Shown here in pieces: positions 1 through 17,406 of a DNA stretch of 60,630 bases. Source of the stretch: Vicingaceae bacterium (GTDB lineage Bacteria; Bacteroidota; Bacteroidia; Flavobacteriales_E; Vicingaceae); the NCBI GenBank assembly GCA_026003395.1, contig BPHE01000001.1:1-60630 (forward strand), read 5' to 3'. Position 1 is the stretch's first letter, and every line of letters begins with the position of its first letter. The position numbers were made by a program, and so were the translations under genes. The notes beneath the pieces are model-generated. The model had not been told where the DNA came from, did not search any database, and saw only the letters and a program-made list of their open reading frames with translations.

Positions 1-67
1 CTATTTTATTTTCATTTCAATTTTTATCTCAATTTTGCATCTCGCTAATCGCATAAATTCGTCGTTT

Positions 68-682
68 ATGCACGATTTTTTCGAACAAATTATCCGGGAC
101 CTTGCCGATAAGGGATTTTGCATCTCTTCTTTTCCCGACACCGATCTGTGCAACGACCTTAAAAACGAAGCTCTGCTACGCTATGATGAAGGATCTTTCC
201 ATCTAGCCTCTATAGGCAAATCTTTCAGAAACACTACCGACTTGTCTGTTCGCTCCGACAAAATCATCTGGATCGAACAAAATGCCCAAAAATTCTCCTC
301 TGCCCTTCGATACTTGCATTTTCTCAATGAATTTGCAGTATACCTCAATCGTACTTGCTTTACAAACATCGGTGTCATTGAATGTTTTTATGCCTGCTAC
401 GCTCCGGGCAGTTTCTATAAAAAACATTTAGACCGATTCAAAAACAGCGACAACCGTCTTTTTACCGTCATTCTCTATCTCAATGATCATATCCTATCGT
501 GCAACCAAGGCGGTCAACTTAGATTATACACAAATGATACAAATCATCTCGATATCATCCCTTCATTAGGAACTTGGGTAATTTTTGACTCTGGGCGTTT
601 TTATCATGAAGTACTGACCTCCAATACCCATCGTTTTTCAATTACTGCTTTTATGAGAAGAAACAACCCCATGTCTTTTTGA
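68..682 (+). CDS. 2-oxoglutarate/Fe(II)-dependent oxygenase, prolyl 4-hydroxylase-like (copy 1)
   Basis: A 204-residue protein of the 2OG-Fe(II) oxygenase superfamily (P4Hc-like). The iron ligands are visible as HxD in KKHLDRF (H120, D122) and a later His in FYHEV (H180), followed by the 2-oxoglutarate-binding Arg in THRFSITAF (R189). SDKIIWIE near residue 63 is also typical of this group. It probably hydroxylates a protein side chain; the substrate is unknown. The reading frame extends back to a TTG at 35, but the ATG at 68 gives a better start. No signal peptide is seen, so it should be cytosolic. The MORN gene follows after 60 bases. An identical protein is encoded at 5335-5949. Confidence 0.85.
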   Translation: MHDFFEQIIRDLADKGFCISSFPDTDLCNDLKNEALLRYDEGSFHLASIGKSFRNTTDLSVRSDKIIWIEQNAQKFSSALRYLHFLNEFAVYLNRTCFTNIGVIECFYACYAPGSFYKKHLDRFKNSDNRLFTVILYLNDHILSCNQGGQLRLYTNDTNHLDIIPSLGTWVIFDSGRFYHEVLTSNTHRFSITAFMRRNNPMSF

Positions 683-742
683 ATGTTCAATCTGAATTTT
701 CTGATTTCATTTTTTTTTTTCGAAATTTGATAAAAAAATTTT

Positions 743-1417
743 ATGTATTTCATACGGAATTTAGTCACATTGACTCTGGTATGCCTGGGTTCTACATTAA
801 TAGCCCAACAGCAAGCCGAACCATATGATTATGAGATTTCTGCTTCTAATGGCAATGAAACGTATTTAGGCAAAGGCAAAGTCATTGACAAACCTTTTTT
901 TGCCTTCTTGCAAGACAGCGCTACCTACAGTCAATTTATTCTTGAAATGAACCGTCAATTGTTCGACCAACAAAAAACTCCCGTCGGATGGTGGAAGTAT
1001 TTCGATACCGATGGTTCTATTATCATGGAAGGCGAATATGACAATGAAGGACACCGCACGGGTGAATGGAAATGGTATTACCGTAATGGCGCCCTTTTTG
1101 GTACCAAATATTATACCGACGGGCAACATACAGGCAAATGTGTATATTACTATCCCAATGGCAAAAAGTCAGAAGAGGGCACTTGCATCAACGATCTTAA
1201 AAAAACCCGGAGACATTACGACAAAAAAGAAAGATTGACCCAAAACGACGAATTTGATGAAACCGGTCAATCCATCTATAGCAAACTTTATTATCCCAAT
1301 GGAAATTTGATGGCCGAAGGACGTTATGTTATGACGCAGCAACTCAACAAAAACGGTTTGCCTGTTTTTGTAAGGGATGGAGAATGGAGAATTTACAACA
1401 GAAAAGGGAAAGCTTAA
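743..1417 (+). CDS. MORN-repeat secreted protein, probably frameshifted near its C-terminus (copy 1)
   Basis: A 224-residue protein with an N-terminal signal peptide (cleavage near residue 21, after LIA) and several MORN_2-type repeats between about residues 70 and 200, recognisable as GEWKWYYRNG, GKCVYYYPNG and KLYYPNGNLMAEG. Such YwqK-like proteins are common in Bacteroidota and mostly of unknown role. The last repeat starts as DGEWRIYN and then stops. In the +1 frame from about 1407 the sequence reads GKLKKRIVYQNGNVISKNKS and ends at 1469, which is the expected rest of a MORN repeat. The shift lies in an AAAAGGG run. It is also present in copy 2, so it is either fixed or a consistent sequence error. 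Confidence 0.85.
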   Translation: MYFIRNLVTLTLVCLGSTLIAQQQAEPYDYEISASNGNETYLGKGKVIDKPFFAFLQDSATYSQFILEMNRQLFDQQKTPVGWWKYFDTDGSIIMEGEYDNEGHRTGEWKWYYRNGALFGTKYYTDGQHTGKCVYYYPNGKKSEEGTCINDLKKTRRHYDKKERLTQNDEFDETGQSIYSKLYYPNGNLMAEGRYVMTQQLNKNGLPVFVRDGEWRIYNRKGKA

Positions 1418-1558
1418 AAAACGTATCGTTTATCAAAACGGAAATGTAATATCCAAAAACAAATCTTAAACCTGCAAATCTATTTTTTATTCACAAGCCC
1501 TTAACCGGAATTTAATTTTTTGAAAAAATACGGATCCAAAAATTATTGAAACTTTGCC

Positions 1559-1566
1559 TAAATTTG
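1559..1566 (+). promoter_or_regulatory. Bacteroidota-type -7 promoter box
   Basis: TAAATTTG fits the Bacteroidota -7 consensus TAnnTTTG and lies 20 bases before the ATG of the surface-protein gene at 1586. No convincing -33 element is seen at the usual spacing. The same box occurs in copy 2 at 6826-6833. Confidence 0.4.
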
Positions 1567-1585
1567 TTAATTGATACCTTTACTG

Positions 1586-3448
1586 ATGAGATGGCTGTTA
1601 ATAATCTGTTTTTTAATATTCCAAATTTGGAATGTCTTTGCCCAGACACCAACTTCTTGTTTTGAGATAGAAAGCATCTTGGTAGATGCCTGCGTTCCGG
1701 GTACAGGTTGCACCAATGCCTCCTCGCCGGCATGCAGTTGCGAAGGAAAAAACGAAATGGTCCGGTTTAAAGTGGGGCCCAATCCTCTTTTCACAAGCAA
1801 CATGACAGTGAATTGGCCGAACAACAACTGGTTGGGCCTGTGTCAAAACGCAACCACCGCTGCCCATACTGCTGCTCTCAACAGCACCATTCAATCTTGC
1901 GGATGGTTGTTGGAACCTACCAATGGAATTTTACCCGCAGGGGCCGAAGTCATTTTGATTACGTCTACCGATTTTTGCACCGTTGGCAACAGCTTTGCCA
2001 ATCTTGCCGATACTGTATACATTCTTTTTCAATGTGCCGGTAATTATGCCGGACACTTTGCCAATTATGGCACAGGATTACGGACATTAATCATCAGCTT
2101 TGGGCCGGGATGTGCCGATACCGTCACATACGACCGGTCTCAATTGGTCAATCAGAATGGCATACCCGGTGCAAGCAATGCCGACGGTTCAACGGTATCG
2201 TTTGATTGGCCCGGCAATCCTACATATGTCAATTATGGCTGCCAGGCACCGGTCAATACTGTCAGTGTCAATGCCTCTATCAACAGTTCGCCTCCGTTTT
2301 GCAAGAATGACACGATAATGCTTACCGGAACTTATTCCGGCACCGTGTATGGAGTGAACTGGTCGGGCGGTAACGGATACTTTACTCAACCAAATAACGA
2401 CACCACTCTCTATATCATCAGTCCAAATGATATCAGCCCAACAGCCATTTATTTTTCGGTATACAGTTGCAATGACACCATCACCGACACATTATGGCTT
2501 AACGTTACCCCATCTTTAAATGCCAATGTTACCGCCTCTCCCAACGATACAATATGTCAGGGCGATACGATTACTCTGACTGCTTCCGGTGGAACATTTT
2601 ATTATTGGAATACCGGCCTGCAAACTCCTTCAATAAAAGTTTATTGGGAAAGCACCTTTGCCGTTACCATAGGCAATGGTTGCGAACAAACCACCATAAC
2701 GGTACCGGTCAAAGTACTGTCTCAGCCGGCTCCTATGATATATACCAGTGGGCCGCCGGTGATTTGTCCCAATGGTGAACCATTATATTTAATTGCCGTT
2801 GGCGGTTCATCATTTTATTGGTCTACCGGCGATACCTCTCAAATGATTGCCGTGAACCAAGGTGGAACATATTACTTGGTTGCAAAAAACCAATGTGGCG
2901 AAGACACCGCTTATATCACCATTCCTCAATCAAATGTCTATGCAGATTTCACTCCTCTCCCACCTTCAGGTCCTTTGCCTCTTAATGTTACATTTTATAA
3001 TAACAGCACGAACTCTACGCAATATTTTTGGAATTTTGGCGACGGAGAAATTTCCAATCAATTGCAACCTATCCATACATTTACATCTCCGGAAGAATAT
3101 AATGTCATGCTAATCGCCTATGACGATTTTGGTTGTAGCGATACTGCTTATCATACTGTTTATGTTAGCGACGAAACATTTCTTTTGATTCCCAACGTGA
3201 TGACTCCAAACAATGACGGCAATAATGATTTTTTCACTATAAAAAGCCTTGGTGCGGTTGATTTGCAATGTAAAATTTTTAATCGTTGGGGAGAAGAAAT
3301 TGCAGGATGGACAGGCATTGACGGTAAATGGGACGGCACTATAGACAAGAAAGATGCTACTGAAGGCACATATTTTTATATTGTTGAAATTGAGTGGTAT
3401 AATGGGAAAAAAGAAAGCAAAACCGGTTTTTTCACTCTTCTTAGGTAA
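1586..3448 (+). CDS. T9SS type B cell-surface protein with PKD domain and gliding-motility-associated C-terminal domain (copy 1)
   Basis: About 620 residues from the ATG at 1586; the frame extends to a TTG at 1571, but the ATG starts a clean signal peptide ending WNVFAQ at residue 20. The Cys-rich N-terminal part (EIESILVDAC, CEGKNEMVRF) resembles a lamin-tail-like domain, which I infer from the pattern only. A PKD domain lies near residues 451-530 (YFWNFGDG). The last ~85 residues (NVMTPNNDGNNDFF, KIFNRWGEEI, GKWDG, GTYFYIVEI) form the gliding-motility-associated C-terminal domain (CHU_C), which directs export by type IX secretion and attachment outside. It differs from copy 2 by Ile to Leu at the codon containing 2432. 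No PorP/SprF gene sits next to it. Confidence 0.9.
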   Translation: MRWLLIICFLIFQIWNVFAQTPTSCFEIESILVDACVPGTGCTNASSPACSCEGKNEMVRFKVGPNPLFTSNMTVNWPNNNWLGLCQNATTAAHTAALNSTIQSCGWLLEPTNGILPAGAEVILITSTDFCTVGNSFANLADTVYILFQCAGNYAGHFANYGTGLRTLIISFGPGCADTVTYDRSQLVNQNGIPGASNADGSTVSFDWPGNPTYVNYGCQAPVNTVSVNASINSSPPFCKNDTIMLTGTYSGTVYGVNWSGGNGYFTQPNNDTTLYIISPNDISPTAIYFSVYSCNDTITDTLWLNVTPSLNANVTASPNDTICQGDTITLTASGGTFYYWNTGLQTPSIKVYWESTFAVTIGNGCEQTTITVPVKVLSQPAPMIYTSGPPVICPNGEPLYLIAVGGSSFYWSTGDTSQMIAVNQGGTYYLVAKNQCGEDTAYITIPQSNVYADFTPLPPSGPLPLNVTFYNNSTNSTQYFWNFGDGEISNQLQPIHTFTSPEEYNVMLIAYDDFGCSDTAYHTVYVSDETFLLIPNVMTPNNDGNNDFFTIKSLGAVDLQCKIFNRWGEEIAGWTGIDGKWDGTIDKKDATEGTYFYIVEIEWYNGKKESKTGFFTLLR

Positions 3449-3555
3449 TTACATTATATTTCTTTGATGTATTTATCTGATCCTAAAAAAGAATGAAGTT
3501 AGGTTATTAAAATATTTTCACCTTCTTGATTTTTGTGGTTTTAATAAAAAATCTC

Positions 3556-4178
3556 ACCACGGAGTGCACGGAGAAAAATAAAAACTCTCCGTGAAAATCT
3601 CCGTGTCTCGTGGCCTTGACACTTCAGAATGTCAATTTATTGATAATCTGAAATATAAATTTTTTGTAGTGGACTACATTTCTTTTTAAATGATAATTTT
3701 TCATTTCTATTCCGTCTATTATATCTTTCTCTGTCTTTTATTGCAAATGTTTATGGTTTCTTGATTTCTTTTTCGCTTTTCTGCTCTCTTGTCTGCTACA
3801 AGTTCTCAATTCTTATTAGTGTTAAGGAAAACGCAAAATGACGTAAAAACTATAATTTAAAGAATTGAAAAGCGAAAAAAGACCGCTCCCAAGCCCCTCT
3901 CCTTGCGAAGGAGAGGGGTCCCGCAAGGGCGGGGTGAGGTTTCAAATCCCTGACAATCAGATTTTGTTGCAAATAAGAATTGTAGAAATGCTATTTGCAC
4001 GGTAGGCAAGCATTTTTGCAATTGAGAATTTAAGACCTCTCCCCATGCCCCTCTCCTTAAGAAGGAGAGGGGCGCCCATAAGGGCGGGGTGAGGTTTTCA
4101 AAAACTCTTCATTTATATTTTGCAGCAAATATTAATCGATAAAACGCAGACAATAAAATCTCCGTACCTCTCTGTGGT
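3556..4178. repeat. MITE-like intergenic element with imperfect terminal inverted repeats (copy A)
   Basis: The 744-base gap between the convergent surface-protein and TPR genes is filled mainly by this element. Its left end (ACCACGGAGTGCACGGAG) is an imperfect inverted match of its right end, whose reverse complement starts ACCACAGAGAGGTACGGAG. Inside are two related modules (3881-3942 and 4034-4098), each with a strong hairpin (CCCCTCTCC ... GGAGAGGGG) followed by GGGCGGGGTGAGG. Related copies are at 8823-9446 (part of the large duplication) and 12307-12678 (independent). There is no coding potential, so it would be non-autonomous. Confidence 0.75.
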
Positions 4179-4192
4179 TTTAAAAAAGAAAA

Positions 4193-4721
4193 TTAACGGT
4201 ATTTTTCATTGCCCTCCAAAATACGACCGAGTCCCATGGCCGCCAGGTCATAATCGGGCTTAATTTGCAGGGCTTTCCGAAAATCTTTTTCTGCATTTAT
4301 CACATCTCCCAATAATTCATAACACCTTCCACGATTGTAATATGCGGCATAATAAGTACTATCGGCCTTTATAGCCATAGTAAAATACTTAATAGCCTCA
4401 TTATACATATTCAAATTCTCCATGTGAATATATCCCATATTGAAATATGACTCACGGAACTTTGGATACATTTCCGACAATTGTTGATACATCCTGAGTG
4501 CCTCGTTCAATTTCAAGTTATCCTGATATAACAAACCAAGGTTATACATTACTTCTATACTACCCGGTTTGATATCCAAGGCATTTTTAAAATATTGTTC
4601 AGCCAGCACCGGATTTCGTTTAAAATTTAAAATTCCCAATTGCACATATGCATCGTAGTTTTCCGGATTTACCTCTACAGCGGTTTGAAACGAAGAAACG
4701 GCCTTTGCCGTATCGCCTAAC
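4193..4721 (-). pseudogene. 5'-truncated TPR lipoprotein gene, cut by the CRISPR array (copy 1)
   Basis: This is the 3' portion of the TPR gene that is complete at 9461-10512. It starts inside the sequence LGDTAKAVSS and keeps the last ~175 residues, which are identical to copy 2. Upstream of 4721 the normal sequence is replaced by CRISPR repeat DNA. The frame stays open into the array (to an ATG at 4756), adding about twelve residues that are only translated repeat sequence. Signal peptide and N-terminal TPRs are missing, so it is unlikely to make a working lipoprotein. Confidence 0.85.
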
Positions 4722-5168
4722 GACCCACTTCCATTAAAACAAGGATTAAGACCCATTATCTTAACTTATAGGATTTCCAGATCCTGTGGGCGACCCACTT
4801 CCATTAAAACAAGGATTAAGACTGTATATTTTCTTTTGCCCAGACACCGCTGTGGGCGACCCACTTCCATTAAAACAAGGATTAAGACAGTCCAGTACAG
4901 AAATAATTCAACCCTGCCAGTGGGCGACCCACTTCCATTAAAACAAGGATTAAGACTATAACTTCATGCCCAATACACTCGAAATTCTGTGGGCGACCCA
5001 CTTCCATTAAAACAAGGATTAAGACTATCCCACTTATCGATTTCTCCAGGCGACGCGTGGGCGACCCACTTCCATTAAAACAAGGATTAAGACTGTAAAT
5101 TTTACACCGGCTACACTTCGGCCGCACACGGGTGGGCGACCCACTTCCATTAAAACAAGGTTTAAGAA
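4722..5168 (+). CRISPR. CRISPR array, 37-bp repeat, six spacers, leader-proximal repeat truncated
   Basis: The repeat starts GTGGGCGACCCAC (a GTGGG/CCCAC stem with a 3-base loop) and ends GGATTAAGAC. Repeats lie at 4722-4752 (lacks the first six bases), 4786-4822, 4852-4888, 4920-4956, 4989-5025, 5057-5093 and 5132-5168. The five middle ones are identical. The last ends TTTAAGAA instead of ATTAAGAC, as expected at the trailer end. Spacers are 33, 29, 31, 32, 31 and 38 bases, all unique. The 3' end ATTAAGAC looks like an 8-base crRNA handle as in type I-B/III systems, so transcription is probably on the plus strand with the leader to the left. That leader is missing: the truncated TPR gene abuts the first repeat. 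No cas gene is in the window. Confidence 0.95.
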
Positions 5169-5210
5169 TTTTGTGCCATTATATTGACTGCCGAGATTAC
5201 TTGCATAGAA

Positions 5211-5233
5211 GCCCTACTTCCTCTAAAACAATG
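5211..5233 (+). repeat. Decayed CRISPR repeat beyond the array end
   Basis: About 42 bases after the last recognisable repeat, this stretch (GCCCTACTTCCTCTAAAACA and three more bases) matches the core of the CRISPR repeat at 18 of 23 positions. Its distance fits one more spacer, so it is probably an eroded oldest repeat. It supports 5168 as the trailer side of the array. Confidence 0.55.
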
Positions 5234-5334
5234 CCCTCTTACTTTTGCCTTCCTAACCAAGTATATTCTATTTTATTTTCATTTCAATTTTTATCTCAAT
5301 TTTGCATCTCGCTAATCGCATAAATTCGTCGTTT

Positions 5335-5949
5335 ATGCACGATTTTTTCGAACAAATTATCCGGGACCTTGCCGATAAGGGATTTTGCATCTCTTCTTTT
5401 CCCGACACCGATCTGTGCAACGACCTTAAAAACGAAGCTCTGCTACGCTATGATGAAGGATCTTTCCATCTAGCCTCTATAGGCAAATCTTTCAGAAACA
5501 CTACCGACTTGTCTGTTCGCTCCGACAAAATCATCTGGATCGAACAAAATGCCCAAAAATTCTCCTCTGCCCTTCGATACTTGCATTTTCTCAATGAATT
5601 TGCAGTATACCTCAATCGTACTTGCTTTACAAACATCGGTGTCATTGAATGTTTTTATGCCTGCTACGCTCCGGGCAGTTTCTATAAAAAACATTTAGAC
5701 CGATTCAAAAACAGCGACAACCGTCTTTTTACCGTCATTCTCTATCTCAATGATCATATCCTATCGTGCAACCAAGGCGGTCAACTTAGATTATACACAA
5801 ATGATACAAATCATCTCGATATCATCCCTTCATTAGGAACTTGGGTAATTTTTGACTCTGGGCGTTTTTATCATGAAGTACTGACCTCCAATACCCATCG
5901 TTTTTCAATTACTGCTTTTATGAGAAGAAACAACCCCATGTCTTTTTGA
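5335..5949 (+). CDS. 2-oxoglutarate/Fe(II)-dependent oxygenase, prolyl 4-hydroxylase-like (copy 2)
   Basis: Identical in protein sequence to the gene at 68-682, with H120/D122, H180 and R189 all present. The ATG at 5335 is again preferred over an upstream TTG at 5302. Here the upstream side is the CRISPR trailer: the gene starts 167 bases after the last array repeat, so its promoter must lie in the short stretch between about 5234 and 5334. Function as an iron-dependent hydroxylase is inferred from the family; the substrate is unknown. Confidence 0.85.
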   Translation: MHDFFEQIIRDLADKGFCISSFPDTDLCNDLKNEALLRYDEGSFHLASIGKSFRNTTDLSVRSDKIIWIEQNAQKFSSALRYLHFLNEFAVYLNRTCFTNIGVIECFYACYAPGSFYKKHLDRFKNSDNRLFTVILYLNDHILSCNQGGQLRLYTNDTNHLDIIPSLGTWVIFDSGRFYHEVLTSNTHRFSITAFMRRNNPMSF

Positions 5950-6009
5950 ATGTTCAATCTGAATTTTCTGATTTCATTTTTTTTTTTCGAAATTTGATAA
6001 AAAAATTTT

Positions 6010-6684
6010 ATGTATTTCATACGGAATTTAGTCACATTGACTCTGGTATGCCTGGGTTCTACATTAATAGCCCAACAGCAAGCCGAACCATATGATTATG
6101 AGATTTCTGCTTCTAATGGCAATGAAACGTATTTAGGCAAAGGCAAAGTCATTGACAAACCTTTTTTTGCCTTCTTGCAAGACAGCGCTACCTACAGTCA
6201 ATTTATTCTTGAAATGAACCGTCAATTGTTCGACCAACAAAAAACTCCCGTCGGATGGTGGAAGTATTTCGATACCGATGGTTCTATTATCATGGAAGGC
6301 GAATATGACAATGAAGGACACCGCACGGGTGAATGGAAATGGTATTACCGTAATGGCGCCCTTTTTGGTACCAAATATTATACCGACGGGCAACATACAG
6401 GCAAATGTGTATATTACTATCCCAATGGCAAAAAGTCAGAAGAGGGCACTTGCATCAACGATCTTAAAAAAACCCGGAGACATTACGACAAAAAAGAAAG
6501 ATTGACCCAAAACGACGAATTTGATGAAACCGGTCAATCCATCTATAGCAAACTTTATTATCCCAATGGAAATTTGATGGCCGAAGGACGTTATGTTATG
6601 ACGCAGCAACTCAACAAAAACGGTTTGCCTGTTTTTGTAAGGGATGGAGAATGGAGAATTTACAACAGAAAAGGGAAAGCTTAA
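6010..6684 (+). CDS. MORN-repeat secreted protein, probably frameshifted near its C-terminus (copy 2)
   Basis: Identical to the copy at 743-1417: signal peptide, then MORN_2-type repeats. The same apparent +1 frameshift is present in the AAAAGGG run; the alternative frame continues the repeat and ends at 6736. It lies between the oxygenase and the T9SS surface-protein genes, all on the plus strand, with 60 bases before it and 168 after it. Confidence 0.85.
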   Translation: MYFIRNLVTLTLVCLGSTLIAQQQAEPYDYEISASNGNETYLGKGKVIDKPFFAFLQDSATYSQFILEMNRQLFDQQKTPVGWWKYFDTDGSIIMEGEYDNEGHRTGEWKWYYRNGALFGTKYYTDGQHTGKCVYYYPNGKKSEEGTCINDLKKTRRHYDKKERLTQNDEFDETGQSIYSKLYYPNGNLMAEGRYVMTQQLNKNGLPVFVRDGEWRIYNRKGKA

Positions 6685-6852
6685 AAAACGTATCGTTTAT
6701 CAAAACGGAAATGTAATATCCAAAAACAAATCTTAAACCTGCAAATCTATTTTTTATTCACAAGCCCTTAACCGGAATTTAATTTTTTGAAAAAATACGG
6801 ATCCAAAAATTATTGAAACTTTGCCTAAATTTGTTAATTGATACCTTTACTG

Positions 6853-8715
6853 ATGAGATGGCTGTTAATAATCTGTTTTTTAATATTCCAAATTTGGAAT
6901 GTCTTTGCCCAGACACCAACTTCTTGTTTTGAGATAGAAAGCATCTTGGTAGATGCCTGCGTTCCGGGTACAGGTTGCACCAATGCCTCCTCGCCGGCAT
7001 GCAGTTGCGAAGGAAAAAACGAAATGGTCCGGTTTAAAGTGGGGCCCAATCCTCTTTTCACAAGCAACATGACAGTGAATTGGCCGAACAACAACTGGTT
7101 GGGCCTGTGTCAAAACGCAACCACCGCTGCCCATACTGCTGCTCTCAACAGCACCATTCAATCTTGCGGATGGTTGTTGGAACCTACCAATGGAATTTTA
7201 CCCGCAGGGGCCGAAGTCATTTTGATTACGTCTACCGATTTTTGCACCGTTGGCAACAGCTTTGCCAATCTTGCCGATACTGTATACATTCTTTTTCAAT
7301 GTGCCGGTAATTATGCCGGTCACTTTGCCAATTATGGCACAGGATTACGGACATTAATCATCAGCTTTGGGCCGGGATGTGCCGATACCGTCACATACGA
7401 CCGGTCTCAATTGGTCAATCAGAATGGCATACCCGGTGCAAGCAATGCCGACGGTTCAACGGTATCGTTTGATTGGCCCGGCAATCCTACATATGTCAAT
7501 TATGGCTGCCAGGCACCGGTCAATACTGTCAGTGTCAATGCCTCTATCAACAGTTCGCCTCCGTTTTGCAAGAATGACACGATAATGCTTACCGGAACTT
7601 ATTCCGGCACCGTGTATGGAGTGAACTGGTCGGGCGGTAACGGATACTTTACTCAACCAAATAACGACACCACTCTCTATATCATCAGTCCAAATGATCT
7701 CAGCCCAACAGCCATTTATTTTTCGGTATACAGTTGCAATGACACCATCACCGACACATTATGGCTTAACGTTACCCCATCTTTAAATGCCAATGTTACC
7801 GCCTCTCCCAACGATACAATATGTCAGGGCGATACGATTACTCTGACTGCTTCCGGTGGAACATTTTATTATTGGAATACCGGCCTGCAAACTCCTTCAA
7901 TAAAAGTTTATTGGGAAAGCACCTTTGCCGTTACCATAGGCAATGGTTGCGAACAAACCACCATAACGGTACCGGTCAAAGTACTGTCTCAGCCGGCTCC
8001 TATGATATATACCAGTGGGCCGCCGGTGATTTGTCCCAATGGTGAACCATTATATTTAATTGCCGTTGGCGGTTCATCATTTTATTGGTCTACCGGCGAT
8101 ACCTCTCAAATGATTGCCGTGAACCAAGGTGGAACATATTACTTGGTTGCAAAAAACCAATGTGGCGAAGACACCGCTTATATCACCATTCCTCAATCAA
8201 ATGTCTATGCAGATTTCACTCCTCTCCCACCTTCAGGTCCTTTGCCTCTTAATGTTACATTTTATAATAACAGCACGAACTCTACGCAATATTTTTGGAA
8301 TTTTGGCGACGGAGAAATTTCCAATCAATTGCAACCTATCCATACATTTACATCTCCGGAAGAATATAATGTCATGCTAATCGCCTATGACGATTTTGGT
8401 TGTAGCGATACTGCTTATCATACTGTTTATGTTAGCGACGAAACATTTCTTTTGATTCCCAACGTGATGACTCCAAACAATGACGGCAATAATGATTTTT
8501 TCACTATAAAAAGCCTTGGTGCGGTTGATTTGCAATGTAAAATTTTTAATCGTTGGGGAGAAGAAATTGCAGGATGGACAGGCATTGACGGCAAATGGGA
8601 CGGCACTATAGACAAGAAAGATGCTACTGAAGGCACATATTTTTATATTGTTGAAATTGAGTGGTATAATGGGAAAAAAGAAAGCAAAACCGGTTTTTTC
8701 ACTCTTCTTAGGTAA
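6853..8715 (+). CDS. T9SS type B cell-surface protein with PKD domain and gliding-motility-associated C-terminal domain (copy 2)
   Basis: About 620 residues, the same as 1586-3448 apart from Leu instead of Ile (base 7699) and two silent changes (7320, 8592). It has a signal peptide (1-20), a Cys-rich N-terminal region, Asn/Thr-rich beta-sandwich-like stretches, a PKD domain near 451-530 and a CHU_C-type C-terminal domain near 535-620 that directs type IX export. The role is probably an adhesin or surface structural protein; the ligand is unknown. Start at the ATG 6853, 19 bases after a TAAATTTG box. Confidence 0.9.
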   Translation: MRWLLIICFLIFQIWNVFAQTPTSCFEIESILVDACVPGTGCTNASSPACSCEGKNEMVRFKVGPNPLFTSNMTVNWPNNNWLGLCQNATTAAHTAALNSTIQSCGWLLEPTNGILPAGAEVILITSTDFCTVGNSFANLADTVYILFQCAGNYAGHFANYGTGLRTLIISFGPGCADTVTYDRSQLVNQNGIPGASNADGSTVSFDWPGNPTYVNYGCQAPVNTVSVNASINSSPPFCKNDTIMLTGTYSGTVYGVNWSGGNGYFTQPNNDTTLYIISPNDLSPTAIYFSVYSCNDTITDTLWLNVTPSLNANVTASPNDTICQGDTITLTASGGTFYYWNTGLQTPSIKVYWESTFAVTIGNGCEQTTITVPVKVLSQPAPMIYTSGPPVICPNGEPLYLIAVGGSSFYWSTGDTSQMIAVNQGGTYYLVAKNQCGEDTAYITIPQSNVYADFTPLPPSGPLPLNVTFYNNSTNSTQYFWNFGDGEISNQLQPIHTFTSPEEYNVMLIAYDDFGCSDTAYHTVYVSDETFLLIPNVMTPNNDGNNDFFTIKSLGAVDLQCKIFNRWGEEIAGWTGIDGKWDGTIDKKDATEGTYFYIVEIEWYNGKKESKTGFFTLLR

Positions 8716-8822
8716 TTACATTATATTTCTTTGATGTATTTATCTGATCCTAAAAAAGAATGAAGTTAGGTTATTAAAATATTTTCACCTTCTTGATTTT
8801 TGTGGTTTTAATAAAAAATCTC

Positions 8823-9446
8823 ACCACGGAGTGCACGGAGAAAAATAAAAACTCTCCGTGAAAATCTCCGTGTCTCGTGGCCTTGACACTTCAGAATGTC
8901 AATTTATTGTTAATCTGAAATATAAATTTTTTGTAGTGGACTACATTTCTTTTTAAATGATAATTTTTCATTTCTATTCCGTCTATTATATCTTTCTCTG
9001 TCTTTTATTGCAAATGTTTATGGTTTCTTGATTTCTTTTTCGCTTTTCTGCTCTCTTGTCTGCTACAAGTTCTCAATTCTTATTAGTGTTAAGGAAAACG
9101 CAAAACGACGTAAAAACTATAATTTAAAGAATTGAAAAGTGAAAAAAGACCTCTCCCAAGCCCCTCTCCTTGCGAAGGAGAGGGGTCCCGCAAGGGCGGG
9201 GTGAGGTTTCAAATCCCTGCACAATCAGATTTTGTTGCAAATAAGAATTGTAGAAATGCTATTTGCACGGTAGGCAAGCATTTTTGCAATTGAGAATTTA
9301 AGACCTCTCCCCATGCCCCTCTCCTTAAGAAGGAGAGGGGCGCCCATAAGGGCGGGGTGAGGTTTTCAAAAACTCTTCATTTATATTTTGCAGCAAATAT
9401 TAATCGATAAAACGCAGACAATAAAATCTCCGTACCTCTCTGTGGT
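8823..9446. repeat. MITE-like intergenic element (copy B, inside the duplication)
   Basis: Same element as 3556-4178 and part of duplication copy 2, filling the gap between the surface-protein gene and the TPR gene. Of the eight differences seen between the large copies, five fall in this noncoding element, including the extra C near 9219. Both internal hairpin modules (about 9148-9209 and 9302-9366) are intact. Confidence 0.75.
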
Positions 9447-9460
9447 TTTAAAAAAGAAAA

Positions 9461-10512
9461 TTAACGGTATTTTTCATTGCCCTCCAAAATACGACCGAGT
9501 CCCATGGCCGCCAGGTCATAATCGGGCTTAATTTGCAGGGCTTTCCGAAAATCTTTTTCTGCATTTATCACATCTCCCAATAATTCATAACACCTTCCAC
9601 GATTGTAATATGCGGCATAATAAGTACTATCGGCCTTTATAGCCATAGTAAAATACTTAATAGCCTCATTATACATATTCAAATTCTCCATGTGAATATA
9701 TCCCATATTGAAATATGACTCACGGAACTTTGGATACATTTCCGACAATTGTTGATACATCCTGAGTGCCTCGTTCAATTTCAAGTTATCCTGATATAAC
9801 AAACCAAGGTTATACATTACTTCTATACTACCCGGTTTGATATCCAAGGCATTTTTAAAATATTGTTCAGCCAGCACCGGATTTCGTTTAAAATTTAAAA
9901 TTCCCAATTGCACATATGCATCGTAGTTTTCCGGATTTACCTCTACAGCGGTTTGAAACGAAGAAACGGCCTTTGCCGTATCGCCTAACTCCAAAAAATT
10001 GATACCCTTAAAAAAATAGGCCTTATCGAGATACATATTGATTTTTAAGGCCTCATCAGCCATCTTGATCGACTCTTTGTTTTCTCTTAGAAACAAATAA
10101 TACTCCGACAGTTTTAAATAAATTTCCGACTTATCTTTTATATCTTTTTTTAAAGCATCTTGCAATACCTGCATAGCTTTCCGGATATCTCCCTCCCCTT
10201 TTCGGAATATCAACTCGGCTTTAGCAATATGGTATTTGGGAGACAAGCTGTCAAGAAGCAATGATTTATCAATATCTGCCATAGCCGATTCAAAATCATT
10301 TTTCTCCATATAAAGCAATGAACGCTCAAAATAAAGCTCCGGATTGTTAATATCTCCACGAAGCTTTTGATTTATCGCCAAAAGGCAGAATCTTCGATTT
10401 GGGTTTGTGGCGATGCCGTTTGAAGGTTCTCTCTTTCTTTATCCGGTTGACACGAAGAAACACACAAAAAAATCGAAAACGCTATGGCAAATACATTAAA
10501 ATATACCTTCAT
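9461..10512 (-). CDS. TPR-repeat lipoprotein with an apparent frameshift after the signal peptide
   Basis: The main frame (10381 to 9461) encodes about eight tetratricopeptide repeats (for example AYYNRGRCYELLGDVINAEK), which form a protein-interaction solenoid. Its apparent start is a TTG without a signal sequence. In another frame an ATG at 10512 begins MKVYFNVFAIAFSIFLC followed by VSSCQPDK, a lipoprotein signal with Cys as the lipidated residue. That frame runs through SPQTQIEDSAF and then stops at 10377-10375. One extra T in the TTTT run near 10382 would join the two. I read this as a single outer-membrane-anchored or periplasmic TPR lipoprotein of ~350 residues carrying a one-base deletion or a sequence error. 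It begins 14 bases after recA and is likely cotranscribed with it. Confidence 0.8.
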
Positions 10513-10526
10513 CCGGTTGCAATTTT

Positions 10527-11534
10527 TTATTGCATGGCTTGTCTGACTTGAGCTTCTATCTCTTCTAAAAGTTCGGGATTATCTTTTAAAAGTTGTTTGA
10601 CATTTTCACGACCTTGCCCCAATTTAGTATCCCCATAACTTATCCAACTACCGGATTTTTTCAACACACCTTTTTCAATTCCGATATCAATAATCTCACC
10701 GATTTTGCTAATTCCTTCACCGTATAAAATATCAAATTCGGCACTCTTGAATGGAGGCGCTACTTTATTTTTCACAATTTTCACTTTTGTACGATTACCC
10801 AAAACATTTTCACCGTCTTTGATAGCCCCGGTGCGTCGTATATCCATTCTTATCGAGGCATAAAACTTGAGAGCATTTCCTCCTGTGGTGGTTTCGGGAT
10901 TACCAAACATCACACCTATTTTTTCTCGCAATTGATTGATAAAAATACATACCGTACCGGCTTTGTTGATCGTAGAAGTGAGTTTACGCAATGCTTTTGA
11001 CATCAAACGCGCCTGCAATCCCATTTGAGAATCCCCCATCTCTCCTTCAATTTCTGCTTGTGGTGTTAATGCTGCCACAGAGTCAATTACGATAATATCT
11101 ATGGCTCCGGAACGTATTAAATTATCTGCAATTTCCAATGCTTGTTCTCCATTGTCCGGTTGAGATATTAAAAGATTATTGATATCAACACCCAGTTTTT
11201 CGGCATAAAATCTGTCAAAAGCATGTTCGGCATCGATAAAAGCAGCAATACCCCCACGTTTTTGTGCTTCGGCAATGGCGTGTATAGCCAGTGTGGTTTT
11301 ACCTGAAGATTCAGGTCCAAAAATCTCAATAATTCTGCCTTTGGGATACCCTCCTACTCCTAAAGCCATATCCAATGTAAGCGATCCGGTGGGAATCACA
11401 TCCAATCCTTTCTCAATGGCATCATCTCCCAAACGCATGATGGTGCCTTTACCGTATGTTTTTTCTAATTTATCAAGGGTCAGTTGCAACGCCTTGAGTT
11501 TCTCTTTGTTAACTTCTTTTGCTTCTGTAGCCAT
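10527..11534 (-). CDS. recA: Recombinase RecA
   Basis: A 335-residue RecA. It forms ATP-dependent filaments on single-stranded DNA for homologous recombination and triggers the SOS response. The Walker A motif GPESSGKT lies at residues 73-80, with the family stretches [17 protein letters not shown] and [10 protein letters not shown] also present. Length is slightly short of the usual ~345-350, as the C-terminal tail is brief. The ATG is preceded by TTTTTACT, a spacing also seen before the ferredoxin gene. No LexA box is apparent in the 86-base gap to the peroxidase gene. The TPR lipoprotein gene follows 14 bases downstream. Confidence 0.98.
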
Positions 11535-11620
11535 AGTAAAAATAATTTGATGTTGTAAAATTAACCAATTTACCTAAAAAAAGCAGTTTGATATCTTTTT
11601 AATTTTTTTGTTCCGGTTGT

Positions 11621-12082
11621 TCAAAATTTTTTCTGCAAAATCTCTTCTGCATGCTCTTTCACTTTTGGTTTGTCGATAATATCTGATATAATTCCGTCTT
11701 CGTTTATAATAAAAGTCGTGCGGTGTATGCCTTCATAGGTGCGTCCCATAAATTTCTTTGGCCCCCAAACTCCGTATGCATTTGCTGCCTCTTTGTTTTC
11801 GTCTGACAAAAGCAAAAAGCCAAGATGATGTTTCTCTATGAACTTTTTATGACTTTTCACAGAATCAGGACTGATTCCCACTACTGTATAACCTTCTTTT
11901 GTCAACCTGCTGAGATTTTCATTCAAATTACAAGCCTGCGTAGTGCATCCGGGGGTCATATCTTTAGGATAAAAATACAAAATCAATTTTTTTCCCCTAA
12001 AATCATTTAATGAATAGATCTTGCCGTCGCTACCCGGCAGATTAAAATCCGGAGCTTTATCTCCCACTTTTAGTTTTTTCAT
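11621..12082 (-). CDS. bcp: Thioredoxin-dependent peroxiredoxin, PrxQ/BCP type
   Basis: A 153-residue peroxiredoxin that reduces hydrogen peroxide and organic peroxides using thioredoxin. The peroxidatic Cys is C46 in PGCTTQAC, with the resolving Cys C51 five residues later, the arrangement of PrxQ enzymes. The fold markers [10 protein letters not shown] and [11 protein letters not shown] are present and the length is normal. There is no signal peptide, so it is cytosolic. It is transcribed in the same direction as recA, 86 bases upstream of it. Confidence 0.95.
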
Positions 12083-12306
12083 TGACTAAGAGTTTTTGCA
12101 ATATTAATGATAATACAAGAATTTTTCTTTGATGTGTTTAAACATTTATCAACACAATTTGATCTTAACCATGAAAGCATAAGTTTCGACCAAAAACTGA
12201 TCAATGAATTGAAAATTAACTCTGACTCATTAATGACTATCAGCGGATTATAAAATCCTCCGTTCATTTCTTTGTAATTCATTGGTTAAAAAACTCGCCA
12301 TGGAGA

Positions 12307-12678
12307 GCACGAGAAACACATAGAAAATAAAAAACTACTTGTAAAAACTATGATTTAAAGAATTGAAAAGTTAAAAAAAGACCTCTCCCCAAGCCCCTCT
12401 CCTTAAGAAGGAGAGGGGGGCCCGCAAGGGCGGGGTGAGGTTTCAAATCCCTGACAATCAGATTTTGCTGCAATTACAAATTATAGAAACGTAATTTGCC
12501 CGGAAGGCAGGAATTATAGCAATTGAGAAGTTAAGACCTCGCCCCAAGCGCCTCTCCTTACAAAGTAGAGGGGGGCCCGCAAGGGCGGGGTGAGGTTTTC
12601 AAATCCCCGACATTTATATTTTGCAGTATAAATCAATCGATAAAACGCAGAAAATAAAATCTCCGTGTCCTCTGTGGT
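12307..12678. repeat. MITE-like intergenic element (copy C, independent insertion)
   Basis: The gap between the peroxidase gene and the histidine kinase gene (12083-12704) contains this shorter, diverged relative of the elements at 3556 and 8823. It keeps the left end (GCCATGGAGAGCACGAG), both hairpin modules (about 12380-12443 and 12535-12600), shared linker sequence (ATCAGATTTTGCTGCA) and the right end (CTCCGTGTCCTCTGTGGT). About 120 bases of the left linker seen in copies A and B are missing. I see no gene in the gap. Confidence 0.7.
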
Positions 12679-12704
12679 TTTTAAAAAACGATTTCGGGAC
12701 CGCT

Positions 12705-14693
12705 TTATTCATTTAAAGGTATCAAAATACGTAAGGTAGTACCATTGCTGCCATCTATCCACAACTCGCCTTCTAATTGGAATGTCAATGTATGAATTAG
12801 TTCCAAACCCAAAGATTCTTTTCTAATGGCACCTGTGTCAAATCCCTTTCCATTATCCTTGATTGTAAGTTCCAAATTTTTATCTTTTTTCTTAAGTGAA
12901 ATGGATATTTCAGGTTGTAGGGTATTTTCAAAAGCATATTTCACAGCATTGGTAATTGCTTCGTTAATTATCAAACCAATAGCAATGGTAGTAGATACCG
13001 GCAACTCAATATTTTCGTCAATGTCAAAAATGCATTGTATTTTTTTTCCTTTTTGATTGTGAAATTGCAACAATTGATTGCATAAATCAATGATATACTC
13101 TTTTGTAGACAAAGTAAGTTTTTCTCCGGTTTGATACAAACGTTCGTGAATAAATGCAAGTGCATGTATTTTGGACGCAATTTCCTCAAGTTCTTTTTTT
13201 GCTTCATCATTGTCAAGTTTTGACAATTTCAAGCGGATTATCGACAAGATAAGTTGAAAATTGTTTTTCACACGATGATGCAACTCTTTAAACAACCATT
13301 CGGCTCTTTCCTTTTGTCTTACTATTTCTCGGTTTTTGGCAAGTATCTGTTGGTTGATTTTATGGCGGGACCGATTCACACTCCACAAAATGACAATCAA
13401 AATTGCAAATAGGAATAACAAAACCAACAACAACCATTGAATAACCTTTTGAGATTTGAGATATTTGTTTTGTTGCTCCAACATCTTTTGATGTTGATGC
13501 GTAAAAGCTTTCAATTGTTTATATTCTCTCTCTTTTCTTAATATCTCTTGTTGGAATTGAAGTTCCATGGCTCTCTTCACATTTTCTATTTTTCTGATTT
13601 TTTGAAGCAAAACATTAAAATCATTTAGATAATCATAAGCTTTTTTAAAATCACCTTGTAAATAATGAATTTCGGCCAGATTTTTCAGAATTTTGATTTT
13701 CTTGCTTTGATCATTTATTGAGGTTGCATATTTCAATGCAAGCAGATATGCCTCTTTGGCTTTTTTCAATTGTTTGATAGTAAGGTAATATTTTCCCAGC
13801 AATAAATGACAATCAGACATTCCGGCGATATCGGAATTTTTTTCAAAATTTTCACATGACCATTTAATATACTTAAAACAATTTTCATCATCGCCCTTTT
13901 GAAAATTATATTTTGCATGAATAAGGTATACATAAGGCAGGAATTTTGACGGTAAGTTCTTTTCAACCAATGCCGTTGCAGAATCAATGATCTTGCCGGC
14001 CTTTTCAAGATTTCTTATATTCAAATAAAATTGAGCAAATTCAATCAAAATTTTTGTTTCAAGTTCGTGATCATTTTTATTTTTAGCATATTGCAGTGCG
14101 CCGGCAAATGACAATTCGGCGGTTTTGATATTGTTTTGCAAAGAATATACTTTCGCCAGCTCAGTCAAACTTTCAGCTATAGCCGAGGTATCCTTGGCTT
14201 TCATGGCATATTGATGAGCTTTTTTCAGATATTCAATGGCCGATGTATAATTCCCTGCCTCTACAAAATATTTTGACAGTATTATTGATACCAAATTAGA
14301 AAGAGAATAATCTCCCAACGATTCTGACTTTAAAAACAAAGAATATGCTAAATTTATCCCTTCGTAAAATTCATCGGTTTGCAATAAAATTTTTGCCTGC
14401 TCGGCTTGCAATCTCAAAACCGGTTTTAATTCTTTTTCTTGTTTGTAATATTCTTGCCATTCTTTACATAAATGCAATGCCGTAGCAGGATCATAATTTG
14501 AAAGATACTCCAGCAAACGTATTTGCTCTATTACACGAATACTGTCATTTGGAGATTGCAATATTCTTTTTTGGAGAGAATCAAGCGATTGACCCAATGC
14601 AAAGTGAGAAAGAAAAAGAAACAAAATCGATTGTATTGTTTTAAAATACAAGGCAAATAAACCACACCCGATGCGCACTTTCCCTTTCTTCAC
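12705..14693 (-). CDS. TPR-containing membrane histidine kinase, HisKA_2 class
   Basis: A 662-residue sensor kinase. An N-terminal signal anchor (SILFLFLSHFALGQS) is followed by a periplasmic TPR array (about 60-370), a coiled coil, one transmembrane helix near 418-440 (WLLLVLLFLFAILIVILW), then the kinase core. The phosphoacceptor His is in ELHHRVKNNFQ (about residue 472-473), the HisKA_2 type; the ATPase domain has the N box NEAITNAVKYAF (about 577) and the G box DNGKGF (about 615). It should phosphorylate a response regulator, which is not encoded in the window. It is the last gene of the operon with rny, 34 bases after the acetyltransferase-like gene. A MITE-like element lies just downstream. 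Confidence 0.92.
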   Translation of the reverse strand: MKKGKVRIGCGLFALYFKTIQSILFLFLSHFALGQSLDSLQKRILQSPNDSIRVIEQIRLLEYLSNYDPATALHLCKEWQEYYKQEKELKPVLRLQAEQAKILLQTDEFYEGINLAYSLFLKSESLGDYSLSNLVSIILSKYFVEAGNYTSAIEYLKKAHQYAMKAKDTSAIAESLTELAKVYSLQNNIKTAELSFAGALQYAKNKNDHELETKILIEFAQFYLNIRNLEKAGKIIDSATALVEKNLPSKFLPYVYLIHAKYNFQKGDDENCFKYIKWSCENFEKNSDIAGMSDCHLLLGKYYLTIKQLKKAKEAYLLALKYATSINDQSKKIKILKNLAEIHYLQGDFKKAYDYLNDFNVLLQKIRKIENVKRAMELQFQQEILRKEREYKQLKAFTHQHQKMLEQQNKYLKSQKVIQWLLLVLLFLFAILIVILWSVNRSRHKINQQILAKNREIVRQKERAEWLFKELHHRVKNNFQLILSIIRLKLSKLDNDEAKKELEEIASKIHALAFIHERLYQTGEKLTLSTKEYIIDLCNQLLQFHNQKGKKIQCIFDIDENIELPVSTTIAIGLIINEAITNAVKYAFENTLQPEISISLKKKDKNLELTIKDNGKGFDTGAIRKESLGLELIHTLTFQLEGELWIDGSNGTTLRILIPLNE

Positions 14694-14727
14694 GTAAATA
14701 AAATCAGATTCTAATTCACCTGCGATA

Positions 14728-15852
14728 TTAAGAAATTTTTTTCACATAACATCTGCGCCGGCGATGTTGTATATGGTCATAATTCTTCCAGTTGCTGATG
14801 GCGTTAGTATTGGTTTCGAATATACCTGTAGTTTCAATGTATTTCAAACCGTTTTTCAACATTGTATCTTGCATGGCTGCCTGCATAATCACGGCGGCAC
14901 CCGTGTTTTGTTTATCTTTTTTTACTCCTGTGAGAATTTGATCAAGTGTATCGACTCCTTTCCCTTTTTTGGCTTTCAGGATATGAAAAATTCCAAATGG
15001 CAACAACCTTCCTTTGGCCTTTTGCATTGCTTTTGAAACACTTGGCATGGAAATAAGAAATCCTATGGGTTCTCCGTCCACGAAAGTCATCTTTATATAT
15101 TCCGGATTGAGCAGGGCAATATATTTTTTGGCGTAAAACTCCATCAATTCTTTTGTCAACGGTGTCACATAAGGCAATACATCAAAAGAATCATTGAGAA
15201 TTTCAAATATTTGATCTTTGTAATGCAATACTTCTTTGATGGATGAAAATTCTCTTAATTCAACTCCAAACCTCTTTTTCAATAATTCTGCACCACGGTT
15301 TGCTTTATTAACGGCAGCTTCCCCCAATGTCAAACGAAATTCCACCCAATCATTTTCTTTTTCAAACCCTTGATTTTCAAAAAAATCTTTATAATATGCA
15401 TGATGATACACAGATGCAATGGGAGGCAAATAATTAAACCCCTCGATCAACAACCCTTGCAAGTCAAGATTAGTAAAACCCAAAGGGCCGTGCACAACTG
15501 TCAGATTTCTTTTCAAGGCCCATTCAAATACTGTTTCGAATAATGCTTTAGCCACTTTCTCGTCATCAATACACTCAAAACGTGTTATTCTAACGTAAGG
15601 GATACCCGTTTTCTCATTGTAGGGATTATGCTTGATAGCGCCAATCCTGCCAATTGTTCTATTATGATCATCAGTAGCAATCCAAAAAGCGGCTTCACAG
15701 AACTTTAACGCCGGATTGGTTTTCTCTTGAAAAATATTGTATTCCTGTGATTTAATGGGAGGTACCCAATATTCATTTCCTTTGTACAATTGAAAAGGAA
15801 GTTCGACAAATTTTTTTTGTCCCGATGTATCTTTTACTTCAATTATTTTCAT
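14728..15852 (-). CDS. GNAT-like acetyltransferase-fold protein, conserved hypothetical
   Basis: A 374-residue protein without signal or membrane segments. Stretches such as RIGAIKHNPYNE, VVHGPLGFTNLDLQGLLIEG and MTFVDGEPIGFLISMP, and a C-terminal ETNTNAISNWKN, match the large conserved bacterial family of N-acetyltransferase-fold proteins whose substrate is unknown. Possible mix-ups in databases with other enzyme names make the function uncertain. It lies 12 bases downstream of rny and 34 upstream of the histidine kinase, so the genes are probably cotranscribed. Confidence 0.75.
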   Translation of the reverse strand: MKIIEVKDTSGQKKFVELPFQLYKGNEYWVPPIKSQEYNIFQEKTNPALKFCEAAFWIATDDHNRTIGRIGAIKHNPYNEKTGIPYVRITRFECIDDEKVAKALFETVFEWALKRNLTVVHGPLGFTNLDLQGLLIEGFNYLPPIASVYHHAYYKDFFENQGFEKENDWVEFRLTLGEAAVNKANRGAELLKKRFGVELREFSSIKEVLHYKDQIFEILNDSFDVLPYVTPLTKELMEFYAKKYIALLNPEYIKMTFVDGEPIGFLISMPSVSKAMQKAKGRLLPFGIFHILKAKKGKGVDTLDQILTGVKKDKQNTGAAVIMQAAMQDTMLKNGLKYIETTGIFETNTNAISNWKNYDHIQHRRRRCYVKKIS

Positions 15853-15864
15853 TATACTACGTTG

Positions 15865-17406
15865 TTATTTAGCTATTCCGATAGAACGTTTTTCACGGAT
15901 TACCGTAACTTTTATTTGTCCGGGATAAGTCATTTCGGTTTCTATTTTATGGGCGATTTGAAATGCCAATTCATCGGCTTCTTTATCACTTACCTTATCG
16001 CTTTCAACCATCACGCGAAGTTCCCTACCGGCTTGGATGGCATAAGATTTTTGCACACCGGGATAGGTCAAAGCAAGATTCTCAAGATCTTTTATCCGTT
16101 GTATGTATTGTTCCATCACTTCTCTACGTGCACCCGGACGTGCTCCCGATATGGCATCGCATACCTGCACGATAGGAGCATACAGTGTGGTCATTTCGAT
16201 TTCGTCGTGATGTGCTCCTATGGCATTGCACACTTCGGGTTTTTCGTTATATTTTTCGGCTAATTTCATACCAAGGATTGCATGTGGCAATTCCGGTTCG
16301 TCATCGGGTACTTTTCCTATGTCATGCAACAATCCGGCTCTTTTGGCAATTTTTGGATTTAAACCCAACTCCGATGCCATGATGGCACACAAATTGGCCA
16401 CCTCCCGTGAGTGCTGCAACAAGTTTTGTCCATAAGAAGAACGGTATTTCATTCGTCCAACCATACGAATCAACTCCGGATGCAATCCATGAATACCCAG
16501 GTCAATACAGGTGCGTTTGCCGGTTTCGATAATTTCTTCTTCAAGTTGTTTTTGAACTTTTGCCACAACCTCTTCGATACGTGCCGGGTGGATGCGGCCA
16601 TCGGCCACTAATTGATGTAGTGCAAGGCGCGCAACTTCCCTTCTTACCGGATCAAAACAAGAAATGATGATGGCTTCGGGTGTGTCGTCAACAATGATTT
16701 CAACACCGGTAGCTGCTTCCAAGGCACGTATGTTTCTGCCTTCACGCCCAATGATTCTGCCTTTAAGTTCATCAGATTCAAGGTTAAACACCGAAACGGA
16801 ATTTTCAATGGCGGCCTCGGTAGCCACTCTTTGAATGGTTTGTATTACGATGCGTTTGGCTTCTTTATTTGCTGTAAGTTTTGCTTCTTCCACAATTTCC
16901 TGAATCTGACTCATGGCTTTGGTTTTTGCCTCGGCTTTTAAGGCCTCAATGAGTTGATTCCGGGCATCCTCGGCTTTCATGCCCGAAATGATCTCAAGTT
17001 GCTCAACTTGCTTCTTGTGGAGTGCTTCCAGTTCTTCTTTTTGCATCTGCACTGCTTCTAAATGCAATTGTAATTTTGACTCCAGTTCTTCCAGCTGTTT
17101 TGACTTTTTGTTTACTTCTTCAATTTTTTGAGAAATCTCCTTTTCTTTTTCTTTGATTTTAATTTCTCTTTCAGAGAGTTTTTTGTCCTTTTCAAGCACA
17201 CTTTTTTCGTGTGCCTCTTTCATTTGAAGAAATTTTTCTTTGGCCTGTATTAGTTTTTCTTTCTTAATGTTTTCGGCCTCTACTTCTGCTTTTTCTATCA
17301 ATAATTGAGCTTTTTTTTCTGCCGATTTTAACAAAATCATTCTCCCGGCTATGTATGCAACAATAGCGCCTAACACCAGCCCGACAATTAAATAAATCCA
17401 TTCCAT
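15865..17406 (-). CDS. rny: Ribonuclease Y
   Basis: A 513-residue membrane-anchored endoribonuclease that starts mRNA decay. Order of parts: an N-terminal transmembrane helix (about 4-21), a long Lys/Glu-rich coiled coil (about 30-190), a KH RNA-binding domain with [13 protein letters not shown] (about 218-230), and an HD hydrolase domain with H332 (LQHSREVA) and H361-D362 (LLHDIGKV) as metal ligands. Length is as expected for the family. It lies 36 bases after zapA and 12 before the acetyltransferase-like gene, a cell-division/RNA-decay arrangement common in Bacteroidota. Confidence 0.98.

Follow-up and report, generated by a model that had tools for sequence, protein, structure and literature searches.

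A near-identical tandem block joined to a truncated CRISPR array at a contig end, probably an assembly or strain-redundancy artefact

False duplications that stem from divergent haplotypes have been documented in vertebrate assemblies (PMC9516828) and, in the case of MAGs, non-unique scaffold ends, local assembly errors and strain-caused fragmentation are likewise on record (PMC7111523). Tandem duplications that actually arise in bacterial chromosomes are expected to be lost by recombination, at 0.01-0.15 per generation according to figures cited in PMC4432121. Our search of the open-access literature yielded no relevant account of CRISPR repeats serving as duplication breakpoints. Here we analysed a locus at which precisely such a repeat forms the junction within a tandemly duplicated block, and we propose, with a probability of roughly 60%, that the first copy of the block is a redundant version of the locus, probably that of a second strain, which was attached where the assembly broke in a CRISPR array, i.e., an artefact.

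The window, by which we mean the whole stretch of DNA analysed, covers positions 1-60,630 of contig C1. At 333,507 bp, C1 is the longest contig in a 33-contig draft genome of 2.54 Mb, which has a completeness of 97.7% and a contamination of 3.3%. Position 1 of the window is base 1 of this contig, and the assembly holds no left flank. The relevant features, in window coordinates except for the last, are:

1-4721, plus strand: copy 1 of the block (2OG-Fe(II) oxygenase, MORN-repeat protein, PKD protein, 3' part of the TPR gene)
4193-4721, minus strand: truncated TPR gene, corresponding to residues 131-306 of the intact protein
4721/4722: junction of TPR gene and CRISPR repeat, with one base (C) of microhomology
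4722-5168, plus strand: CRISPR array of 7 repeats of 37 nt (first truncated, last degenerate) and 6 spacers
5169-5267, plus strand: trailer of 99 nt, ending CCTAACCAAGTATATT, single copy in the genome
5268-9989, plus strand: copy 2 of the block, continuous with the intact locus (TPR gene, then recA)
9461-10381, minus strand: intact TPR gene, adjoining recA
10527-11534, minus strand: recA, the anchor of the ancestral locus
C24, 1-13831: type III-A CRISPR operon, unlinked to the window array

The duplication begins at the first base of the contig and ends 10 kb in. Alignment of 1-4721 with 5268-9989 gives a direct repeat of 99.83% identity, with 7 substitutions and one 1-nt indel, in agreement with the first-pass annotation, which had described a duplicated 5.27-kb block with a first copy ending at 4721 inside the TPR gene. 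As a sequence match, 4.7 kb at 99.8% is far beyond chance; the feature is present in the record, and it is its biological reality that is doubtful. All 8 differences between the copies are confined to positions 2053-3952 (P = 0.009 if uniform), 3 of them in coding sequence (2 synonymous, 1 I/L), and, judging from the two sequences, they look like population polymorphism between strains. The PKD protein in each copy carries a type IX secretion signal. Several of the differences are close to a dispersed intergenic repeat (CCCCTCTCCTT...GGGGTGAGGTTT), which occurs in the window at 3879-3942, 4031-4102, 9146-9206, 9299-9370 and 12341-12687, and is present, too, at the ends of C3 and C12. A further pair of tandem sequences, of ~250 bp and 95% identity, lies at 32056-32991, inside a longer 75% match.

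The gene order bcp-recA-TPR is kept in seven relatives, two of which, both from one genus, also have a T9SS-signal gene facing the TPR gene in convergent orientation, as in copy 2, its similarity being weak (32-34% identity). No counterpart of the oxygenase gene or of the MORN gene turned up there. Given that the relatives share the arrangement of copy 2, this copy represents the ordinary locus and copy 1 is the addition. The closest named matches of RecA itself are mostly uncultured Bacteroidota and Flavobacteriales genomes.

At the junction, the sequence reads ...GCCGTATCGCCTAA / CGACCCACTTCC..., and the intact TPR gene reads ...GCCGTATCGCCTAACTCCAAAAAATTG... at 9989. The CRISPR repeat is GTGGGCGACCCACTTCCATTAAAACAAGGATTAAGAC, and the first repeat is without its first five or six bases, cut at the loop of the GTGGG-CGA-CCCAC hairpin; the latter folds at -4 kcal/mol, a modest value, with 21 of 200 shuffles doing as well. 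The open frame of the truncated TPR gene continues into the antisense strand of this first repeat, up to 4756. The earlier description of copy 1 can be read directly at 4721/4722: it abuts a CRISPR repeat that is six bases short at its start, and the microhomology amounts to a single base. Also confirmed are the truncation of the TPR gene and of the first repeat and the lack of a leader, for which a single junction had been proposed to account jointly. With just one base in common, the join cannot be due to short-read k-mer overlap alone. CRISPR repeats make up about 259 of the 5268 nt of the unit (5%), so that a random breakpoint falling inside a repeat would be no more than mildly surprising.

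The array runs 5' to 3' on the plus strand, given that the degenerate repeat stands on the right, at the trailer end. Its six spacers are all different and 29-38 nt long. In the place of a leader, the TPR coding sequence directly abuts the truncated first repeat, a situation to be expected were the array's true 5' end absent from the assembly. Allowing up to 3 mismatches, the repeat was found in this genome only on C1 and at positions 1-37 of C23, with no second array of the kind predicted by the first-pass annotation for the left side of the contig; it is also absent from 45 other genomes of the family, from the GTDB r220 contigs (among which the record itself may be excluded) and from IMG/VR. 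A comparison of the exact cores of spacers 5 and 6 with phage sequences gave no match, and none of the spacers has a self-target in 362 kb of the genome's own sequence, with up to 6 mismatches allowed.

The first 103 positions of C23 hold the same CRISPR repeat, starting exactly at its base 1, then a single spacer and a decayed terminal repeat; next to them is a gene that we take, from its sequence and not from a family search, to be gatB. Considered as a candidate for the predicted second copy, this fragment was rejected: the trailer beside gatB differs from that in the window, and the fragment represents another array's 3' end. For neither array does the assembly contain the leader side.

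That C23 begins at the very first base of the repeat demonstrates that this CRISPR repeat does interrupt assembly in this genome, and a contig break is itself expected to land in such a repeat. Moreover, our duplication survey, which covered the contig ends and some single contigs of the draft, revealed abundant redundancy. The right ends of C3 and C22 have 8564 bp in common, with 5 differences (3 synonymous); the right end of C4 and the left end of C20 are 100% identical over 5977 bp; the left ends of C5 and C28 match over 2044 bp at 99.4%; the right end of C6 and the left end of C17 are 100% identical over 777 bp; and three further pairs of contig ends overlap by 113, 86 and 55 bp. Because these lengths do not correspond to one fixed k-mer, they suggest a read-overlap or merged assembly with strain variants. 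For several regions, the draft contains at least two near-identical versions, which is most simply explained by two or more strains. The block at the start of C1 combines the same traits: strain- or allele-level differences between the copies, a position at a contig end and similar redundancy elsewhere in the assembly.

The redundancy, the location at a contig end and the array-associated break on C23 are observed; the wrong join itself and the step responsible for it are what we infer. Assembly of C1 would have arrived at the CRISPR array from the right and failed to pass through it, as on C23; a chimeric read, gap closing or a graph walk would then have joined the redundant neighbouring 4.7 kb, with its 8 strain-level variants, to the broken end. 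Several observations weigh against such an artefact. With an overlap of one base, a chimeric read, a scaffold gap fill or a similar step has to be assumed in place of k-mer or overlap merging, and, as detailed below, tandem blocks elsewhere in the draft could be genuine. Nevertheless, because several contig ends are redundant and C23 breaks at the same repeat, the artefact is likelier than the chromosomal duplication with a CRISPR repeat as breakpoint that the first-pass annotation had put forward: its description of block and junction stands, whereas its duplication reading has become the less likely one.

The next reading in order of plausibility, which we regard as unlikely but deserving serious attention, is that of a real tandem duplication, fixed or present in part of the population, in which the CRISPR system was passive. 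The duplicated unit would comprise the end of the array, the trailer, three genes and part of the TPR gene, having arisen by non-homologous repair or template switching, and the left breakpoint would have fallen in the repeat by proximity, perhaps aided by the hairpin. The two direct copies with a novel junction are indeed there, a single event would cover the truncated gene, the truncated repeat and the absent leader, the breakpoint coincides with the hairpin loop, and the near-blunt join is atypical of overlap-based assembly errors. Other tandem blocks are also found in the draft: those on C2 have abnormal junctions, and that on C17 is older. At its left end, C2 contains two X-R-X blocks in which R is an insertion sequence, R on C1 being the CRISPR array. 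In the first (4578-9637), an rpsP-rimM block is tandemly duplicated at 99.7%, the first copy including a truncated transposase and a tRNA methyltransferase gene that an insertion sequence truncates at 6917. In the second (9700-13150), 743 bp at 100% identity flank an IS-like element (10443-12407) with CTTGACTTTGACACTTTC inverted ends, and this pair either was duplicated along with the element or results from two neighbouring insertion sites having been misjoined. True insertion-sequence-mediated duplication is possible for the C2 blocks, in which case the genome would be rich in young duplications. On C17, positions 5074-16391 hold ~2.5 tandem copies of a 4.5-kb unit (98% and 96% identity) that encodes long secreted-type proteins; this family looks like a genuine older duplication and indicates that such blocks can persist.

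Against a real duplication on C1 speak its position at a contig end, given that many such ends are redundant in this draft, and the lack, anywhere else in the bin, of the trailer and array expected on the left, no second trailer copy having been found there. Furthermore, the divergence of 0.17% between the copies would mean that an unstable structure survived for long, which is unlikely without selection because a true 5-kb tandem duplication is normally lost quickly, although the older C17 family shows that such divergence can be reached.

Less probable again, and counted within the artefact that we favour, is a chimera produced during library preparation, by ligation or by template switching at the repeat hairpin, which would constitute the terminal read of the contig. 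The contig-end position, the near-blunt junction and the breakpoint at the hairpin loop all fit; however, given the 8 sites at which the copies differ, such a chimera must have joined molecules of two variants of one locus. The hairpin loop at the breakpoint could favour template switching in library preparation or in vivo. The corresponding biological scenario, a genuine duplication whose breakpoint was set by the repeat hairpin, with CRISPR arrays acting as fragile sites for replication template switching that duplicates neighbouring genes, appears quite improbable to us.

The genome does encode CRISPR effectors. The operon on C24 consists of genes for Cas6b, Cas10/Csm1, a Fic-like protein (between Cas10 and Csm2), Csm2, Csm3, Csm4, Csm5, Csx1, a CARF-adenosine deaminase, a NUDIX protein and a second Csx1. 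There is no array beside this operon on C24, the operon is without adaptation genes, and no Cas1 was found in the genome. Cas6 cleaves RNA, and type III effectors target RNA and transcribed DNA. A duplication driven by the CRISPR system itself, with Cas-dependent cleavage or integration at the repeat causing the break, can draw on this type III-A operon with Cas6b, but the absence of any sign of an integrase and of spacers matching the 362 kb of own sequence searched, together with these activities of Cas6 and the effectors, makes it the least credible of all, with hardly any probability left to it. The CARF-adenosine deaminase is Cad1-like (PADLOC CARF_ADA, E = 2.8e-172), and its gene overlaps that of the NUDIX protein; Cad1 deaminates ATP to ITP (PMC11645235). 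The NUDIX partner of the deaminase on C24 may be of interest.

Taken as it stands, the C1 block is weak evidence for CRISPR repeats causing duplications. Were the structure true, it would be a rare case of a CRISPR array as a rearrangement breakpoint, together with a partially duplicated leaderless array. Its main value is that of a warning: draft contigs break at CRISPR arrays, and redundant strain sequence can be misjoined there, so gene duplications beside an array at a contig end call for a check of the reads before they are interpreted biologically.

Compared with known systems, the CRISPR components conform to type III-A in Cas10/Csm1, Csm2-5, Cas6b, Csx1, the 37-nt repeats and the degenerate terminal repeat; the window array differs in being leaderless as assembled and unlinked to the cas operon, and no Cas1 was found. 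With the unstable bacterial tandem duplications exemplified by patAB (PMC4432121), the C1 block shares a direct duplication of a few kb and a novel junction, but the patAB duplication was demonstrated experimentally, whereas on C1 there are 8 differences between the copies and no assembled left side. The resemblance to the assembly errors described for MAGs (PMC7111523) extends to redundant contig ends, fragmentation by strain variation and repeat-associated breaks, although scaffold-end overlaps in MAGs are usually one k-mer long and those in this draft range from 55 to 8564 bp. Finally, the false (heterotype) duplications described by PMC9516828 are similar in that near-identical copies with allele-level variants are kept as paralogues, some of them on one scaffold; these were described for diploid vertebrates, whereas the variants at the present locus would be those of co-existing bacterial strains.
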